DNA from: Paracoccaceae bacterium
GTDB taxonomy: Bacteria > Pseudomonadota > Alphaproteobacteria > Rhodobacterales > Rhodobacteraceae
Direction of reading: 5' to 3'
Assembly (NCBI GenBank): GCA_026709265.1
Contig: JAPOTI010000047.1
Coordinates: 1-64,000 of the forward strand
DNA: 64,000 nucleotides
The stretch's first letter is position 1; every line of letters starts with the position of its first letter. Shown here one piece after another: positions 3,782 through 28,380 of the stretch. A model generated the notes under the pieces. That model had not been told where the DNA came from and made no database searches. It saw nothing but the letters and a program-made list of their open reading frames with translations. The position numbers and the translations under genes are program-made.

Positions 3782-4552
3782 TCAGTAAGTGGCGCTCAGG
3801 CCGCCATCGACACAAATCACTTGTCCAGTCACATATTGAGCACGGTCAGACAACAGATAAACAAAGGCCCCGGCGCAATCCTCAACGGTCCCTGGACGAC
3901 GCAACGGAATTCGGCCAGCAGCAATATAGTGAGTCTTGAAATCCTCCATCTCGTGCTCATGCAATCCGTCTTTGGTCAATGCCATGCGCGTATCAATGAA
4001 TCCGGGTGCCACCGCGTTCACACGTATATTGTCTGCACCAAAATCGACTGCCATGGACCGTGTCAACATCAGCATCCCTCCCTTGGCTGTCGCATAGGCA
4101 GCTGAACCCGGCACACCAAAAAACGCCTGCGTTGACAATGTATTGACGATTCCCGGAGCGCTGGACTGTTCCAACATTGGCAGCACTGCGCGGGTGACGC
4201 GCAATGCTCCGGTCAGATTGGTGTCAAGAACTTCAGCAAACCGTTCGTCGGTCAGCGAACGGGCATCGTTGATATCGAGGATGGCGGCATTATTGACCAG
4301 GCCATCCAGCATCGGCCAATCTCGGATTTCTGACAAGGAGTCTTCAAGACTGGCAGGATCGCTGACATCCAGACGATTGTGGCGTAAGCGATCTGCATAT
4401 TTCTTCAACCCCAAAACGGCCTGATCCAGAACCTCACCATCCCTATCGGTCGCCAGGACATACGCGCCTTCGGCCAGACAGGCACGAACCACAGCGAGGC
4501 CGATCCCACGCGCCGCGCCCGTGACCAGAATTCGGCGGCCTTCAAGAATCAT
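3782..4552 (-). CDS. SDR family oxidoreductase
   Basis: ILVTGAARGIGLAVV (TGxxxGxG), NNAAI, YATAKGG (YxxxK), C-terminal YVTGQVICVDGG. Start ATG at 4552 overlaps the SelA-like stop by about 11 nt. Confidence 0.92.
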   Translation of the reverse strand: MILEGRRILVTGAARGIGLAVVRACLAEGAYVLATDRDGEVLDQAVLGLKKYADRLRHNRLDVSDPASLEDSLSEIRDWPMLDGLVNNAAILDINDARSLTDERFAEVLDTNLTGALRVTRAVLPMLEQSSAPGIVNTLSTQAFFGVPGSAAYATAKGGMLMLTRSMAVDFGADNIRVNAVAPGFIDTRMALTKDGLHEHEMEDFKTHYIAAGRIPLRRPGTVEDCAGAFVYLLSDRAQYVTGQVICVDGGLSATY

Positions 4553-5750
4553 CCCAATTGCCTCTCCACGCCAATATCTGGGCTTCCCGTGCATGTTTGA
4601 TGTCACTCCAGCTCAATTGCAGCCCATCACCATCTGCACGAAAACGCGCAACTTCCTCGCGGATGGCAACCACGACATGTTCCGCTTCGTCATCGGTCAG
4701 GTTGCATGGATCGAGATAGATTTCCTGATGCTCAATCAGATCGTCACGCACGATAATCTGCGGAGAACGTGCCGCCAGCCGCGCCGTCAATTCCCAAGCA
4801 TTCAGGCCTGCGACAACTGGATCAACCGTCATACATAACCGGGTAATCGGATTGCCCGTCCAGTCTGCATGACGGGCCAGCGTCATTCCCGGGATATCGG
4901 AAAGAGACCGCGACCAGAGTGCAACCCGCTTCTCCTCTGCGACCTGCACCGCCTGATGATCGCGCGTCTCCCAAAGCTCCAGCGCCGCGATTGCACCGAC
5001 GATACTTTCCTTGCCAGCCTTCATCGTGCGCCCAATGCCGCGATGCTGCAGGTAGGTCGCGCGAACCAGATCCGTTTGTCCAGCGACAATCCCGCTGGTA
5101 ACACCGCCCAGACATTTATGGCCCGAATAAATCACAGCCGATGCACCCATAGCGAGCGGTCCCGTCAGATCATATTCCGATGCCATATCAACAATGGCAG
5201 GAACTTCATATTCCTGACAACAGGCAATGAATAGATCCATCGGCAATTCGTTTTCGCGCACAGTATGATGCGACACGACATACATCGCCGCCGCCGCCCC
5301 TCGCTCCAGTGCTGCGCGCAGATGCCATTCCTCACAGGTGGCTGCAGTACCCACTGGCACGACATGCGCACCTGCGAGGCGAATGGCCTGATCCACCGGT
5401 GCACCGTAATTGACCATATGGCTCATTGGCAGCAGAACGCGCCGCTCTTTGTCTGTCTGCGGAAGCATCTCAATTCGCGCCAGATCGGCACCGGTCAGGC
5501 AGGCCGCCACGGTTTGAGTCATGGCGGCGGCCGAGCAAGCCGTTATACATCCGGCCTCGGCACCCGTTATCCGCGCGATGACCGCACCCGCGCGTGTCTG
5601 CAACTCATCCATATCGACAAAGGATGACATAATCTGATCCACCAGAGCACGGGTCTCAGCGGCAACACGCGAGGCGCCGATACCTGTCTTCGTTCCCGTC
5701 ACATTGATGACAGGTGTCAGACGCCACCGTTCAAATGGATCATCCATCAT
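4542..5750 (-). CDS. SelA-like PLP-dependent lyase/aminotransferase-fold protein (L-seryl-tRNA(Sec) selenium transferase-like; DgaE-like)
   Basis: PVINVTGTKTGIGASRV N-terminus and VIYSGHKCLGGVTSGIVAG PLP-lysine motif; paralogue of 14087..15280. Confidence 0.8.
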   Translation of the reverse strand: MMDDPFERWRLTPVINVTGTKTGIGASRVAAETRALVDQIMSSFVDMDELQTRAGAVIARITGAEAGCITACSAAAMTQTVAACLTGADLARIEMLPQTDKERRVLLPMSHMVNYGAPVDQAIRLAGAHVVPVGTAATCEEWHLRAALERGAAAAMYVVSHHTVRENELPMDLFIACCQEYEVPAIVDMASEYDLTGPLAMGASAVIYSGHKCLGGVTSGIVAGQTDLVRATYLQHRGIGRTMKAGKESIVGAIAALELWETRDHQAVQVAEEKRVALWSRSLSDIPGMTLARHADWTGNPITRLCMTVDPVVAGLNAWELTARLAARSPQIIVRDDLIEHQEIYLDPCNLTDDEAEHVVVAIREEVARFRADGDGLQLSWSDIKHAREAQILAWRGNWDDS

Positions 5751-12102: not shown

Positions 12103-12799
12103 GTGAGATTCAGCAAGCGTATGCATACATGGAAACAATTCCACGGATGGATGGAGTTGTACAACCTTGATCAAGGGCATGGACTCACTCAAGCTTACAC
12201 GATCGGCTATCGATTTATTGATCGCCATGATGACATGTGGACCAAACGGTTCAATGATTTCAAGAAAAAGCATCGTCCTGCGTTGCGCGGTGGTGCCGGT
12301 CTGATGAGAAGCACTGTTCCTGAGCTTGTGCGGAAATTGGGAATCAACACGACAAAGATTGCTTTTGTTCCGGGACTATCTTCGAATGAAAACATCGCAT
12401 CTTCTAGCGGCGTACTCTCAAGACTTACACATTTTTGTGCAGAAAAAACAAATGTAAAATTCATCCGGAATGCAATTACAAAAAAAACCCCACGAGCCAC
12501 TGCACACGGGTAATAAAGACAGAATTCAACGTCGTGAGATATTGGATGGTGCCGAATTCAGTTCACATGGTTTAAGTGGGTTGGACAATGTATTTGTTTT
12601 CGATGACGTAATCACAACTGGAGCTACACTTTCGCATATCGCAAGGGCAATCCGTGAAGAAAACCCATTTGCCGAGGTCTACGGAATCGCTCTCTGCAAG
12701 TCGGATAGCCAAAACTATAACCGCGAGAATTTTGACAGAGAACTCACAAATGACCATATTCCGAAGCAATGGAACAAGATATGGAAGGAGAGTGAGTAA
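12103..12799 (+). CDS. ComF-like phosphoribosyltransferase, split by a frameshift (ORFs 12103..12513 and 12470..12799)
   Basis: PRPP-binding-loop motif VFVFDDVITTGATLSHIARAI in the second ORF. First ORF supplies the N-terminal half (IAFVPGLSSNENIASS...). Frames join at A8 (12480-12487). Confidence 0.7.
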
Positions 12800-12834
12800 T
12801 GAACGGGCTAAATGCAGGATAGGATTATAGGCTC

Positions 12835-13800
12835 ATGTCAGACTATGTGTCATTATCTGCCATCCCCCTACTTGCTTTGACGAAGCTCAATAAAATTGGA
12901 TCCGCAACAGCATTGAATATTATTGATCGACCTGTCACCGAGAAGAGTTCTAAAGGCTGCCGTGAGTACCTCATTAGCCGACTGGCGGCAGTAAAAAATC
13001 TGCCTTGCGTCACATCCATCGATATTGACCACGCGTGGAGTGCCAGTGAGGATGAAATTGAATCAAGCATACAGATGGGAATGAAAGTCATAACTTTCCA
13101 TGATGATGCTTATCCTGCTCGCCTGAAAAACATCCCAAATCCGCCAGCATTGCTATTTATAAAAGGGAGCGAACAAGCGATGCATGCTAATTTGAGCTTA
13201 GCGGTAGTTGGTACACGCGAACCGACTTCTTTCGGGATGGAAGTGGCACGCAGAACAGGAAAGACGGCAGCTGAGGGGGGTTATGTAATTGTGAGCGGTC
13301 TTGCAAGTGGGTGCGATACGTATGCACATTTAGGGTGTCTTGAGGCAACCGGCACCGGTTTGGCAGTGTTGGCGCATGGATTAGACAGAGTCTATCCTGA
13401 GTCGAATCGGGGACTTGCGGACCAGCTTCTCGACCATGGGGGCTGCCTGGCGAGTGAGTACCCCGTCGGAAAGGAGCCCGCACGATACACTTTTGCCGCA
13501 CGTGACCGATTACAAAGTGGTCTTTCAGATGGTGTTTTGGTGATCGAAACCGATGTTCGTGGGGGAACAATGAATACCGTTCACTTTGCGAGTAAGCAGA
13601 AAAGAAGAATCGCCTGTATTGAGCACCCAAAGCAATATCAAGATGATAAGAAAACGAGAGGCAATCGGAAATTGATCAATGAGAGAAATGCCTTTTCTAT
13701 ACCAAACGGAAAGGCACTGATTGAATTTTTGGATTGCATAAAACCAACAAATACAACCGCTTCTGAAGTTCGATGTTCAGTCCGGAGAGAACACCGGTAA
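12835..13800 (+). CDS. Stand-alone DprA/Smf-like DNA-processing protein
   Basis: GMKVITFHDDAYPARLKNIPNPPALLFIKG, AVVGTREPTSFG, VIVSGLASGCDTYAHLG, LAHGLDRVYPESNRGL, FAARDRLQSGLSDGVLVIETDVRGGTMNTVHFA: DprA Rossmann motifs. No obvious C-terminal winged-helix domain. Confidence 0.85.
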   Translation: MSDYVSLSAIPLLALTKLNKIGSATALNIIDRPVTEKSSKGCREYLISRLAAVKNLPCVTSIDIDHAWSASEDEIESSIQMGMKVITFHDDAYPARLKNIPNPPALLFIKGSEQAMHANLSLAVVGTREPTSFGMEVARRTGKTAAEGGYVIVSGLASGCDTYAHLGCLEATGTGLAVLAHGLDRVYPESNRGLADQLLDHGGCLASEYPVGKEPARYTFAARDRLQSGLSDGVLVIETDVRGGTMNTVHFASKQKRRIACIEHPKQYQDDKKTRGNRKLINERNAFSIPNGKALIEFLDCIKPTNTTASEVRCSVRREHR

Positions 13801-14086: not shown

Positions 14087-15280
14087 TCAGGTCTCACGGC
14101 CCCATTGAAGATAACCGTCGATCGCACTGTTTCGCGCCATCGAAAGGTCTGACGCGACACCCGCCAATTGACTTCTGTCGGTGAGCAAAGTTCTGAGTGA
14201 ATCAGCAACAATTTCTGCATCTCCCTCCTTGAGATTGCAGGGATCAAGCTGGAAGTATCCCAGTTCGATTTCGTGGTCGCGGACAATTATTGGAGGTGTT
14301 TGGCGCGCCAAAGCAGATGCCAAGCCGGACGCATCGACACCAAGTTGTTTGGCATCGATCTGAACCTCCAATCGGTCAAGTGGATTCCCGGTCGGATCGG
14401 CCACAATCCTTGGTGTCACACCATCGATTCCGGACAGTGTGCGCATCCAGATATTGAGCACCGCAGTTTCGTGTTCCCTGATGCCTTTGTGATCGCGGGT
14501 CGCCCAGACCTCGAGAGCTGCGATTGCACCGGCAATGCTCTCTTTGCCGACCTTCATTCCGCGCCCAATCCCCGTATTCTGCAAATAAGCGGCACGCACG
14601 AGATCCCGGCGTCCGGCAACGACACCAGAGGTGGGGCCACCAAGAAATTTATGCCCGGAATAAATGACCAGGTCAGCACCATCTGATAAGAATCCACGAA
14701 GATCATATTCGGAAGCAGCATCTACGATGACAGGAATATCTGCCGCATGCGCAAGTTCGGCAAATCGTTTGAGAGGAACCTGTCCATAATGCACGACATG
14801 GTGCGATATGACATAAAGTGCAGCAGCAACTTCCGATGTCAGGGAAGCGCGTAGCGAATGGTCAGTGCACAGGGTCGACTGCCCTACGGGACGCACCGTA
14901 GCACCCGTGAGTTCGATAGATTGTGAAATCGGCGCACCGTAATGGCAGAGATGACCAAGTTGCACGACAATTTTTGACTTGGGTCCGGGATCCTGCGGCA
15001 AAGCCTCAACCCTTCCCGGGTCCATGCCGGTCATGCAGCCAGCAATCGACAGGGAAATTCCAGCCGAAGCGGATGCGGTCATGAACCCTGCCTCGGCCCC
15101 GGTCAGACGCACAATGCTCTCGCTCGCACGAGACTGCAATGCATGCATATTCACAAAATGCCCCATGATTGCAGCGGTCGCGTCACGAATCTTCGGTGCC
15201 GCAATTGATGCACCAAGTCCGGTCATGGTTCCAGAGGCATTGATGATTGGTGTGAGCCCAAGTGGTGGTGTGTCAGCCAT
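14087..15280 (-). CDS. SelA-like PLP-dependent lyase, second paralogue
   Basis: PIINASGTMTGLGASIAAPKI ... VIYSGHKFLGGPTSGVVAGRRDLV; start MADTPPLGL at 15280. Confidence 0.8.
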   Translation of the reverse strand: MADTPPLGLTPIINASGTMTGLGASIAAPKIRDATAAIMGHFVNMHALQSRASESIVRLTGAEAGFMTASASAGISLSIAGCMTGMDPGRVEALPQDPGPKSKIVVQLGHLCHYGAPISQSIELTGATVRPVGQSTLCTDHSLRASLTSEVAAALYVISHHVVHYGQVPLKRFAELAHAADIPVIVDAASEYDLRGFLSDGADLVIYSGHKFLGGPTSGVVAGRRDLVRAAYLQNTGIGRGMKVGKESIAGAIAALEVWATRDHKGIREHETAVLNIWMRTLSGIDGVTPRIVADPTGNPLDRLEVQIDAKQLGVDASGLASALARQTPPIIVRDHEIELGYFQLDPCNLKEGDAEIVADSLRTLLTDRSQLAGVASDLSMARNSAIDGYLQWGRET

Positions 15281-15764
15281 CGCAGACCTCCAATGAAAAG
15301 ATTCCTTCAATTTCAACCGTAATCTGATTGGGAAGCGATCCGACACCAAAGGATGAACGCGCATGGACTCCCCGGATGCCAAAGATTTCTGCCAGAAGGG
15401 TTGAGGCTCCATCGATCACATAGGGGTGACGTTCAAAGTCTGCCGTTGCATTGACAAGGCCGAGTAACTTGATCACGCCAGTGACCTTATCCAGAGAGCC
15501 AAGTTCAGCGCGAAGTGATGCAAGCATATTGACTGCAACAAGTTTGGCATGCACGCGGGCGGTGTCCGCATCAACATCGGCACCAACCTTACCACACAGA
15601 AGTTTGCCGTCCGAAGTGACTGCTCCCTGCCCTGACACGTAAGCCAGGTCATTGTGTATGCGGACATTACAAAAGGCACCGATTGGTTCAGGTGGCAGGT
15701 CAGGTAATTGCAAACCCAGTTGGGCAAGTCGTGTTTCCGGTAATTGCAAATCAGTTTTGAACAT
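15273..15764 (-). CDS. RidA family protein, second paralogue
   Basis: AYVSGQGAVTSDGKLLCGKVGADV ... VHARSSFGVGSLPNQITVEIEGIFSL; start MFKTDLQLPE at 15764. Confidence 0.85.
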   Translation of the reverse strand: MFKTDLQLPETRLAQLGLQLPDLPPEPIGAFCNVRIHNDLAYVSGQGAVTSDGKLLCGKVGADVDADTARVHAKLVAVNMLASLRAELGSLDKVTGVIKLLGLVNATADFERHPYVIDGASTLLAEIFGIRGVHARSSFGVGSLPNQITVEIEGIFSLEVCDG

Positions 15765-27084: not shown

Positions 27085-28380
27085 TCATGATGCCTGGGGT
27101 GAAGGCAACTGGTCCGGATCCAAACCGCCCCTTGTGATGATATAGCGCTGAAAACTGGGGATCGGACAGGTCAGCTGGCCCGTGTCGGGATCGTCCTGCA
27201 ACGCCCCGCAATGGATGAGATGCGTGACATACGACTCCGCATCATGGCCTTTGGGAATGCGCCATTCACGTGAAGCCCCGCTGTCGGCATAGGCGTCAAC
27301 CCAATCAATCACCTGTCCGATGGTTGTGTGTTGACCTTCCATCCGGGACTTCCCCAGCTCAAACATCACGCGTCCCACCAGTTTGCGCGAGACGGCCATG
27401 TCCTGGCTGAACTGGGTGGCATAATAGCCATGCCGCAGCGCATCGCTGCGCGCCTGCACCCGGTCCCAGTCGGTGATCCTGTCGAGATTCCCGTTGATGC
27501 CCGGCTCCAGCGCCGCCTCGGCGAGGGCCTGCTGCGCCCAGTGCACATGCCGGGGCCAGCCGTCGGTGGTGTCCATCACCGCCAGTGCCCGCCCACGGCA
27601 CTTCTCCATCGTCACCCCGAAATGGGCGCAAAACCGATCCAGGAGTTCGCTACATTCCGCCCGGGTCAAACTCCCGAGGGAATGGGCGCGGATCCCATGG
27701 GTCAATCCCAGATCGCGTAACCGCGATTGGGTATCGCCAAGGCCTGCACAGACCAGGGTGAGGGGTAATTTTGTCCGGGCTTCATGGATCGCCTGCAAAA
27801 ACCGGGAATATGTTGAATCGCGGCTGGGCGAGAGGTTCTGAGCTTCATCCACCGCCACGATCACTGGTGAATCCCATTGTGATGCGGGAAAAACCTGATG
27901 CAGAGACCCAATGGTTTCAATGTTGTGGGATTGAAACAGCGTGGCTAGGTTCAGGGACAGGTCTGCGCGCCCCAGAACATCCAAAAGTGCCAGATTCCCC
28001 AGCGTACGGGCCACCGTTTGGGCCAGTTTTCTCAACTGTGACTTTGGCGTGATCCCCAGGGCCCCAATCGCCCGTAAAACGTCCGGGAATTGATCACAGA
28101 GTTCAACACTGGAAATTTCCAGTGTTTTCGGCACATGTGGCTGTATATTCTGTGTTGCCAGTTCACTCAGGACCGAACTCTTGCCCGCACCCGGCGCGCC
28201 CTGGATAATGATGGCGTTCCCCGGCACCGCCTGTTGTCCGGACCGGACCCGCACCAAGGTGCGGTGCGCCTTGGTAAGAATCTCCCCGAGCAGATCCTCA
28301 CGCCCCACAAAAACCGGGGGATGATCCTTGGCCCCGTCATCAACAAAATCCTGCAGCGCGTCCCGTTGAAACGCGGTCAT
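27085..28380 (-). CDS. Orphan AAA+ ATPase (AAA_16/22, Orc1/Cdc6-like fold)
   Basis: VGREDLLGEIL, IIIQGAPGAGKSSVLSEL (Walker A), VIVAVDEAQNL (Walker B). Confidence 0.75.
   Translation of the reverse strand: MTAFQRDALQDFVDDGAKDHPPVFVGREDLLGEILTKAHRTLVRVRSGQQAVPGNAIIIQGAPGAGKSSVLSELATQNIQPHVPKTLEISSVELCDQFPDVLRAIGALGITPKSQLRKLAQTVARTLGNLALLDVLGRADLSLNLATLFQSHNIETIGSLHQVFPASQWDSPVIVAVDEAQNLSPSRDSTYSRFLQAIHEARTKLPLTLVCAGLGDTQSRLRDLGLTHGIRAHSLGSLTRAECSELLDRFCAHFGVTMEKCRGRALAVMDTTDGWPRHVHWAQQALAEAALEPGINGNLDRITDWDRVQARSDALRHGYYATQFSQDMAVSRKLVGRVMFELGKSRMEGQHTTIGQVIDWVDAYADSGASREWRIPKGHDAESYVTHLIHCGALQDDPDTGQLTCPIPSFQRYIITRGGLDPDQLPSPQAS

Follow-up and report, generated by a model that had tools for sequence, protein, structure and literature searches.

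A ShosTA-type operon of an alphaproteobacterial branch

The plus-strand cassette found at positions 12103-13800 of the 64-kb stretch of DNA analysed here (hereafter the window) is very likely (probability of about 0.88) a ShosTA toxin-antitoxin and anti-phage operon; it was probably acquired horizontally and belongs to an alphaproteobacterial branch that resembles operons of rhizobial plasmids. It contains a phosphoribosyltransferase (PRTase) gene followed, after a gap of 35 nt (12800-12834), by a gene encoding a DprA-domain protein, and is flanked on either side by minus-strand metabolic or transport operons. An earlier note, made from the sequence alone, had described this plus-strand pair, its gap and its position between minus-strand operons, and the ORF coordinates agree with it on all three points. 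The pair, the gap, the PRPP loop and the DprA domain of that description all stand, but the PRTase gene is split and not intact. The 321-aa ORF of the cassette is longer than the longest open stretches obtained after shuffling the cassette (mean of 105 aa, maximum of 210 aa); this comparison and the profile matches reported below place it beyond chance.

The DprA-like protein

The second gene, shosA (12835-13800, plus strand), encodes a DprA-like putative antitoxin of 321 aa. As the earlier note had anticipated, it matches the DprA domain of Pfam (PF02481, E = 5.6e-61), which covers residues 81-285. Since only 36 residues follow this domain, there is too little room for the usual C-terminal winged helix, whose absence had been noticed previously. 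The best PADLOC model for this ORF is ShosA (232.9 bits, E = 1.2e-69), which ranks above the other DprA-type defence models, namely PsyrA (108 bits) and a second ShosA model (97 bits). The score obtained with a curated DprA model is marginally below its cut-off (189.8 versus 191.15).

The nearest ShosA sequences found are carried by plasmids of Rhizobium leguminosarum, Sinorhizobium meliloti and Agrobacterium (50-59% identity), and the window protein joins those of the Rhizobium and Sinorhizobium plasmids with a support of 99/97 (IQ-TREE). Thirteen ShosA/RqlI-type sequences split from housekeeping DprA, also with a support of 99/97 (IQ-TREE); the label test applied to the tree groups two non-canonical DprA-like sequences (L030 and L031) with ShosA as well, both being outside these 13. 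A single-sequence structure prediction of the window ShosA had a pLDDT of 31.5, which is too low for use; a solved structure (9vzo) is labelled 'DprA-like antitoxin protein ShosA'.

The PRTase and its displaced frame

The first gene is split into two overlapping plus-strand ORFs, 12103-12513 and 12470-12799, which match the first and the second half, respectively, of a common set of intact relatives. The 5' part shares 33-38% identity with the PRTases of three plasmid loci (L008 4296-4982, L009 4316-4984 and L011 3921-4610; tblastn/blastp), and the 3' part shares 40-43% identity with the same proteins. A profile built from these three intact relatives finds the window twice, in two different frames (E = 7e-22 for the 5' part and 3e-23 for the 3' part). 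The likely start of the PRTase is the ATG at 12121. Homology of the 5' part extends to about 12487, and the frame shifts by one base at a run of eight A (A8, 12480-12487). No comparable run of A occurs at the same place in the three relatives. Both halves are devoid of any further stop, and the PRPP loop announced in the earlier note is preserved in the second ORF (VFVFDDVITTGATL, 12590-12631). A continuous toxin frame, which is required for function although not for descent, is interrupted at 12480-12487 in this sequence. By descent, the locus is ShosTA, but this copy may not work.

The 3' piece matches the ShosT model of PADLOC with a low score (31.1 bits, E = 5.1e-8). Since the intact plasmid relatives score no better on this model (34.6, 31.9 and 30.3 bits), this low score is explained by the divergence of the branch rather than by the broken frame. 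The PRTase adjacent to shosA is therefore a weak but consistent match to ShosT. In Pfam, matches to PRTase_2 and Pribosyltran, the latter (PF00156) being the model suggested by the earlier note, are present but below cut-off. The description of this protein as ComF-like fails as a family assignment: the piece reaches 24.1 bits on TIGR00201 against a cut-off of 233, and the match is limited to positions 153-190 of 190, i.e. to the part that includes the PRPP loop. This cut-off is strict, 12 of the 14 control genomes scoring below it; the ComF proteins of other family members obtain 51-83 bits, most of them near full length.

Plasmid relatives and the HAD gene

The order PRTase-DprA-HAD phosphatase is found in all three plasmids that carry this PRTase subtype (L008 4296-6464, L009 4316-6452 and L011 3921 to L040 1099). 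When used to search the plasmid collection, the PRTase retrieved just three records, which are the same rhizobial plasmids; hence, in the sequences seen, this subtype of PRTase is always accompanied by its ShosA, and vice versa. These operons are the closest relatives of the window locus, with which they share the gene order and 50-59% (ShosA) or 33-43% (PRTase) identity, but they differ from it by their intact PRTase and by the HAD gene located directly after dprA. No match to a plasmid-type HAD gene, decayed or intact, was detected between 11700 and 14200 of the window, and the HAD matches found elsewhere in the source genome are distant generic HADs.

The HAD domain, which is encoded by a separate gene on the rhizobial plasmids, is fused to the PRTase in the Pf phage PfAC02a (L035) and in genome G248 (L004). 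Since it is part of the PRTase in these other ShosT proteins, its absence from the window may matter. However, PRTase/DprA pairs without HAD also exist, in SopEPhi (PRTase of 193 aa) and in Hymenobacter (PRTase of 174 aa). PfAC02a carries the same pair of partners as the window, in a locus that its authors annotated as ShosTA. Both it and G248 encode a DprA-like partner and a PRTase whose PRPP loop is of the same type but, besides the fusion, their PRTase part shows only weak local similarity to that of the window.

Relationship to known systems and putative function

In shosTA (Kimelman 2012, as cited in PMC9122126), syrTA and rqlHI, DprA homologues act as antitoxins (PMC9122126). Furthermore, a pair made of DprA and PRTase in a P2-like phage hotspot (Rousset 2022) gives E. 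coli protection from T7 and lambda (PMC9122126). The idea, mentioned in the earlier note, that DprA-PRTase pairs are defence or conflict systems is therefore right and already published (PMC9122126). Since shosTA, syrTA, rqlHI and the P2-hotspot pair have been described, the window locus does not qualify as the new candidate module that had been proposed. The PRTase domain of RqlH is genotoxic in the absence of the DprA-like RqlI, and substitutions in its PRPP-binding pocket remove most of this effect (PMC4670107). According to a review citing Pu et al. 2025 (PMC12593503), ShosT acts both as a phosphoribosyltransferase and as a pyrophosphatase and modifies the purine pool, its action leads to DNA duplications and filamentation, ShosA is a DNA-binding protein and T7 Gp0.7 is a trigger.

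By analogy with these homologues, whose PRTases diverge strongly from that of the window, the two genes would encode a toxin and its antitoxin. An intact ShosT would be a PRPP-dependent PRTase toxin, perturbing the purine nucleotide pools and causing chromosome damage. ShosA, a DNA-binding DprA-like protein, would counteract this toxin until the balance is upset by phage infection. The earlier note had proposed that the DprA-like protein senses DNA and that the PRTase is the effector, a hypothesis also put forward in the 2022 paper (PMC9122126). A role in defence agrees in kind with the known systems, but in the literature the DprA-like protein is an antitoxin that restrains or counteracts the PRTase and not a mere sensor that activates it. 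The antitoxin role is better supported than the sensor role.

The window locus resembles ShosTA by its adjacent PRTase and DprA-like genes, in this order, and by its profile matches (1e-69 for ShosA and 5e-8 for ShosT). It differs by the displaced frame of its PRTase, by its divergent alphaproteobacterial subtype and by its location between metabolic operons instead of on a recognisable phage or plasmid. RqlHI and PsyrTA (SyrTA) also oppose a DprA-like protein to a genotoxic PRTase domain, but the PRTase of RqlH is fused to a RecQ-like helicase. No helicase ORF is located next to the window pair, which therefore does not belong to RqlHI/PsyrTA.

State of this copy

The displaced frame of ShosT and the missing HAD gene suggest an inactivation, unless the A8 run is a sequencing error. 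We slightly favour a true inactivation of this copy, in which the toxin would be lost and the antitoxin still intact. The frame break does not support the view that this genome harbors a working module. Since the two halves are comparably conserved and contain no other stop, the break would be recent, erroneous or tolerated through slippage; inactivation comes first among these readings, a sequencing error second and slippage last.

A tentative second reading is that the genome carries an intact and functional ShosTA and that the shift results from a sequencing or assembly error in the homopolymer. The break falls exactly on the sole homopolymer of at least 8 nt in the 64-kb window. Moreover, the similar conservation of the two halves (33-38% and 40-43%), the lack of other stops and the preservation of the PRPP loop are what would be expected of a gene under selection. 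However, inactivation of the toxin is one of the outcomes expected for toxin-antitoxin loci, and short-read assemblies rarely miscount a run of eight A, which weighs against an error insofar as this assembly is a short-read one. In addition, the 20 other window ORFs that were scanned mostly show end-to-end domain matches without frame breaks, indicating that the assembly is not generally frame-broken.

It is quite improbable that the toxin is instead controlled by transcriptional or translational slippage on the A8 run, or by phase variation, restoring the frame in some products or some cells. Runs of eight A are known slippery sequences, and this one lies inside a coding region of which both halves are conserved. 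The run would then act as a contingency or slippage site holding an otherwise active ShosT mostly off, making the locus a phase-variable anti-phage toxin-antitoxin system, which we regard as just as doubtful. Indeed, the run is not conserved in L008, L009 or L011, no second genome carrying this cassette is there for comparison, and no positive evidence points to slippage.

Housekeeping dprA and comF

The cassette gene is the sole full-length DprA-domain gene of the source genome, in which contig C102 carries a DprA-like fragment (111-aa ORF, L002 1468-1803, minus strand) and no full-length ComF was found. These observations are those expected if the pair were the housekeeping dprA/comF relocated to a new locus, but this is highly unlikely, such an identity being contradicted by the tree, which sets the window protein apart from housekeeping DprA, and by the family scores, the PRTase reaching only 24 bits on comF, restricted to the PRPP loop. 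Furthermore, none of the four sampled genus members (G000, G298, G299 and G210) has a canonical full-length dprA or comF, and three of them also lack the cassette, whereas both genes are present in nearly all other sampled family members. Of the three members devoid of the cassette, two gave no match of any kind to the DprA family; in G299, the match is the non-canonical L030. Since dprA and comF are also lost in congeners devoid of the cassette, their loss is not tied to it, and by descent the cassette is no replacement for the competence genes.

The likeness to the housekeeping DprA and ComF of competence is limited to the DprA Rossmann domain and the PRPP loop; the lack of a winged helix, the separate position in the tree and a PRTase score far under the ComF cut-off set the pair apart. 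The earlier note had listed, as grounds against its proposal, that the pair be the only dprA/comF of the genome, in a conserved context, and that homologous pairs be absent from the vicinity of defence genes. The search for separate housekeeping genes gave no full-length one and none of the neighbours examined was recognised as a defence gene, but the context is not conserved and the protein does not group with housekeeping DprA.

Distribution and acquisition

The locus was probably acquired horizontally. The GC content of the cassette is 0.46 versus 0.52-0.53 for its surroundings, its GC3 is lower too, and its neighbourhood is not conserved. Its distribution is sporadic: no other ShosA was detected at E <1e-48 in 385 genomes of the class and 399 of the phylum. 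Among the 298 genomes of the family, one more distant ShosA was found, in G248, where a HAD-PRTase fusion lies beside DprA. When genome contigs were scanned with the ShosA sequence, the only matches were three distant loci from Bacteroidota, and two scans of viral contigs using alignments of close relatives revealed no viral carrier.

No convincing flanking repeat or tRNA marking an insertion was found. G210, the sole genus member that has the right-hand operon, contains different genes at the position of the cassette, including a putative IclR-like ORF, and does not show a clean empty site. The cassette is flanked by paralogous SelA-like/RidA/transport operons (4542-5750 and 14087-15412), whose SelA-like proteins are 48% identical. 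PADLOC recognised no defence system when ten additional window ORFs were tested, so that no defence island is visible around the cassette; its sole match among them is a weak one to a homing endonuclease, for a gene that encodes cytochrome oxidase subunit I according to Pfam. Elsewhere in the window, 27085-28380 (minus strand) encodes a 431-aa AAA/nSTAND1-type ATPase that matches no defence model.

Significance

The locus belongs to the known ShosTA systems as a divergent member that may be inactivated, and is not a discovery. The main value of its analysis is a correct annotation, without which the pair would be entered as housekeeping dprA/comF. Furthermore, the locus adds a divergent alphaproteobacterial branch to ShosTA, in which HAD is encoded by a third gene of its own on the related plasmids and is missing here. 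Hence, this branch could help to test the contribution of HAD to the toxicity of ShosT.
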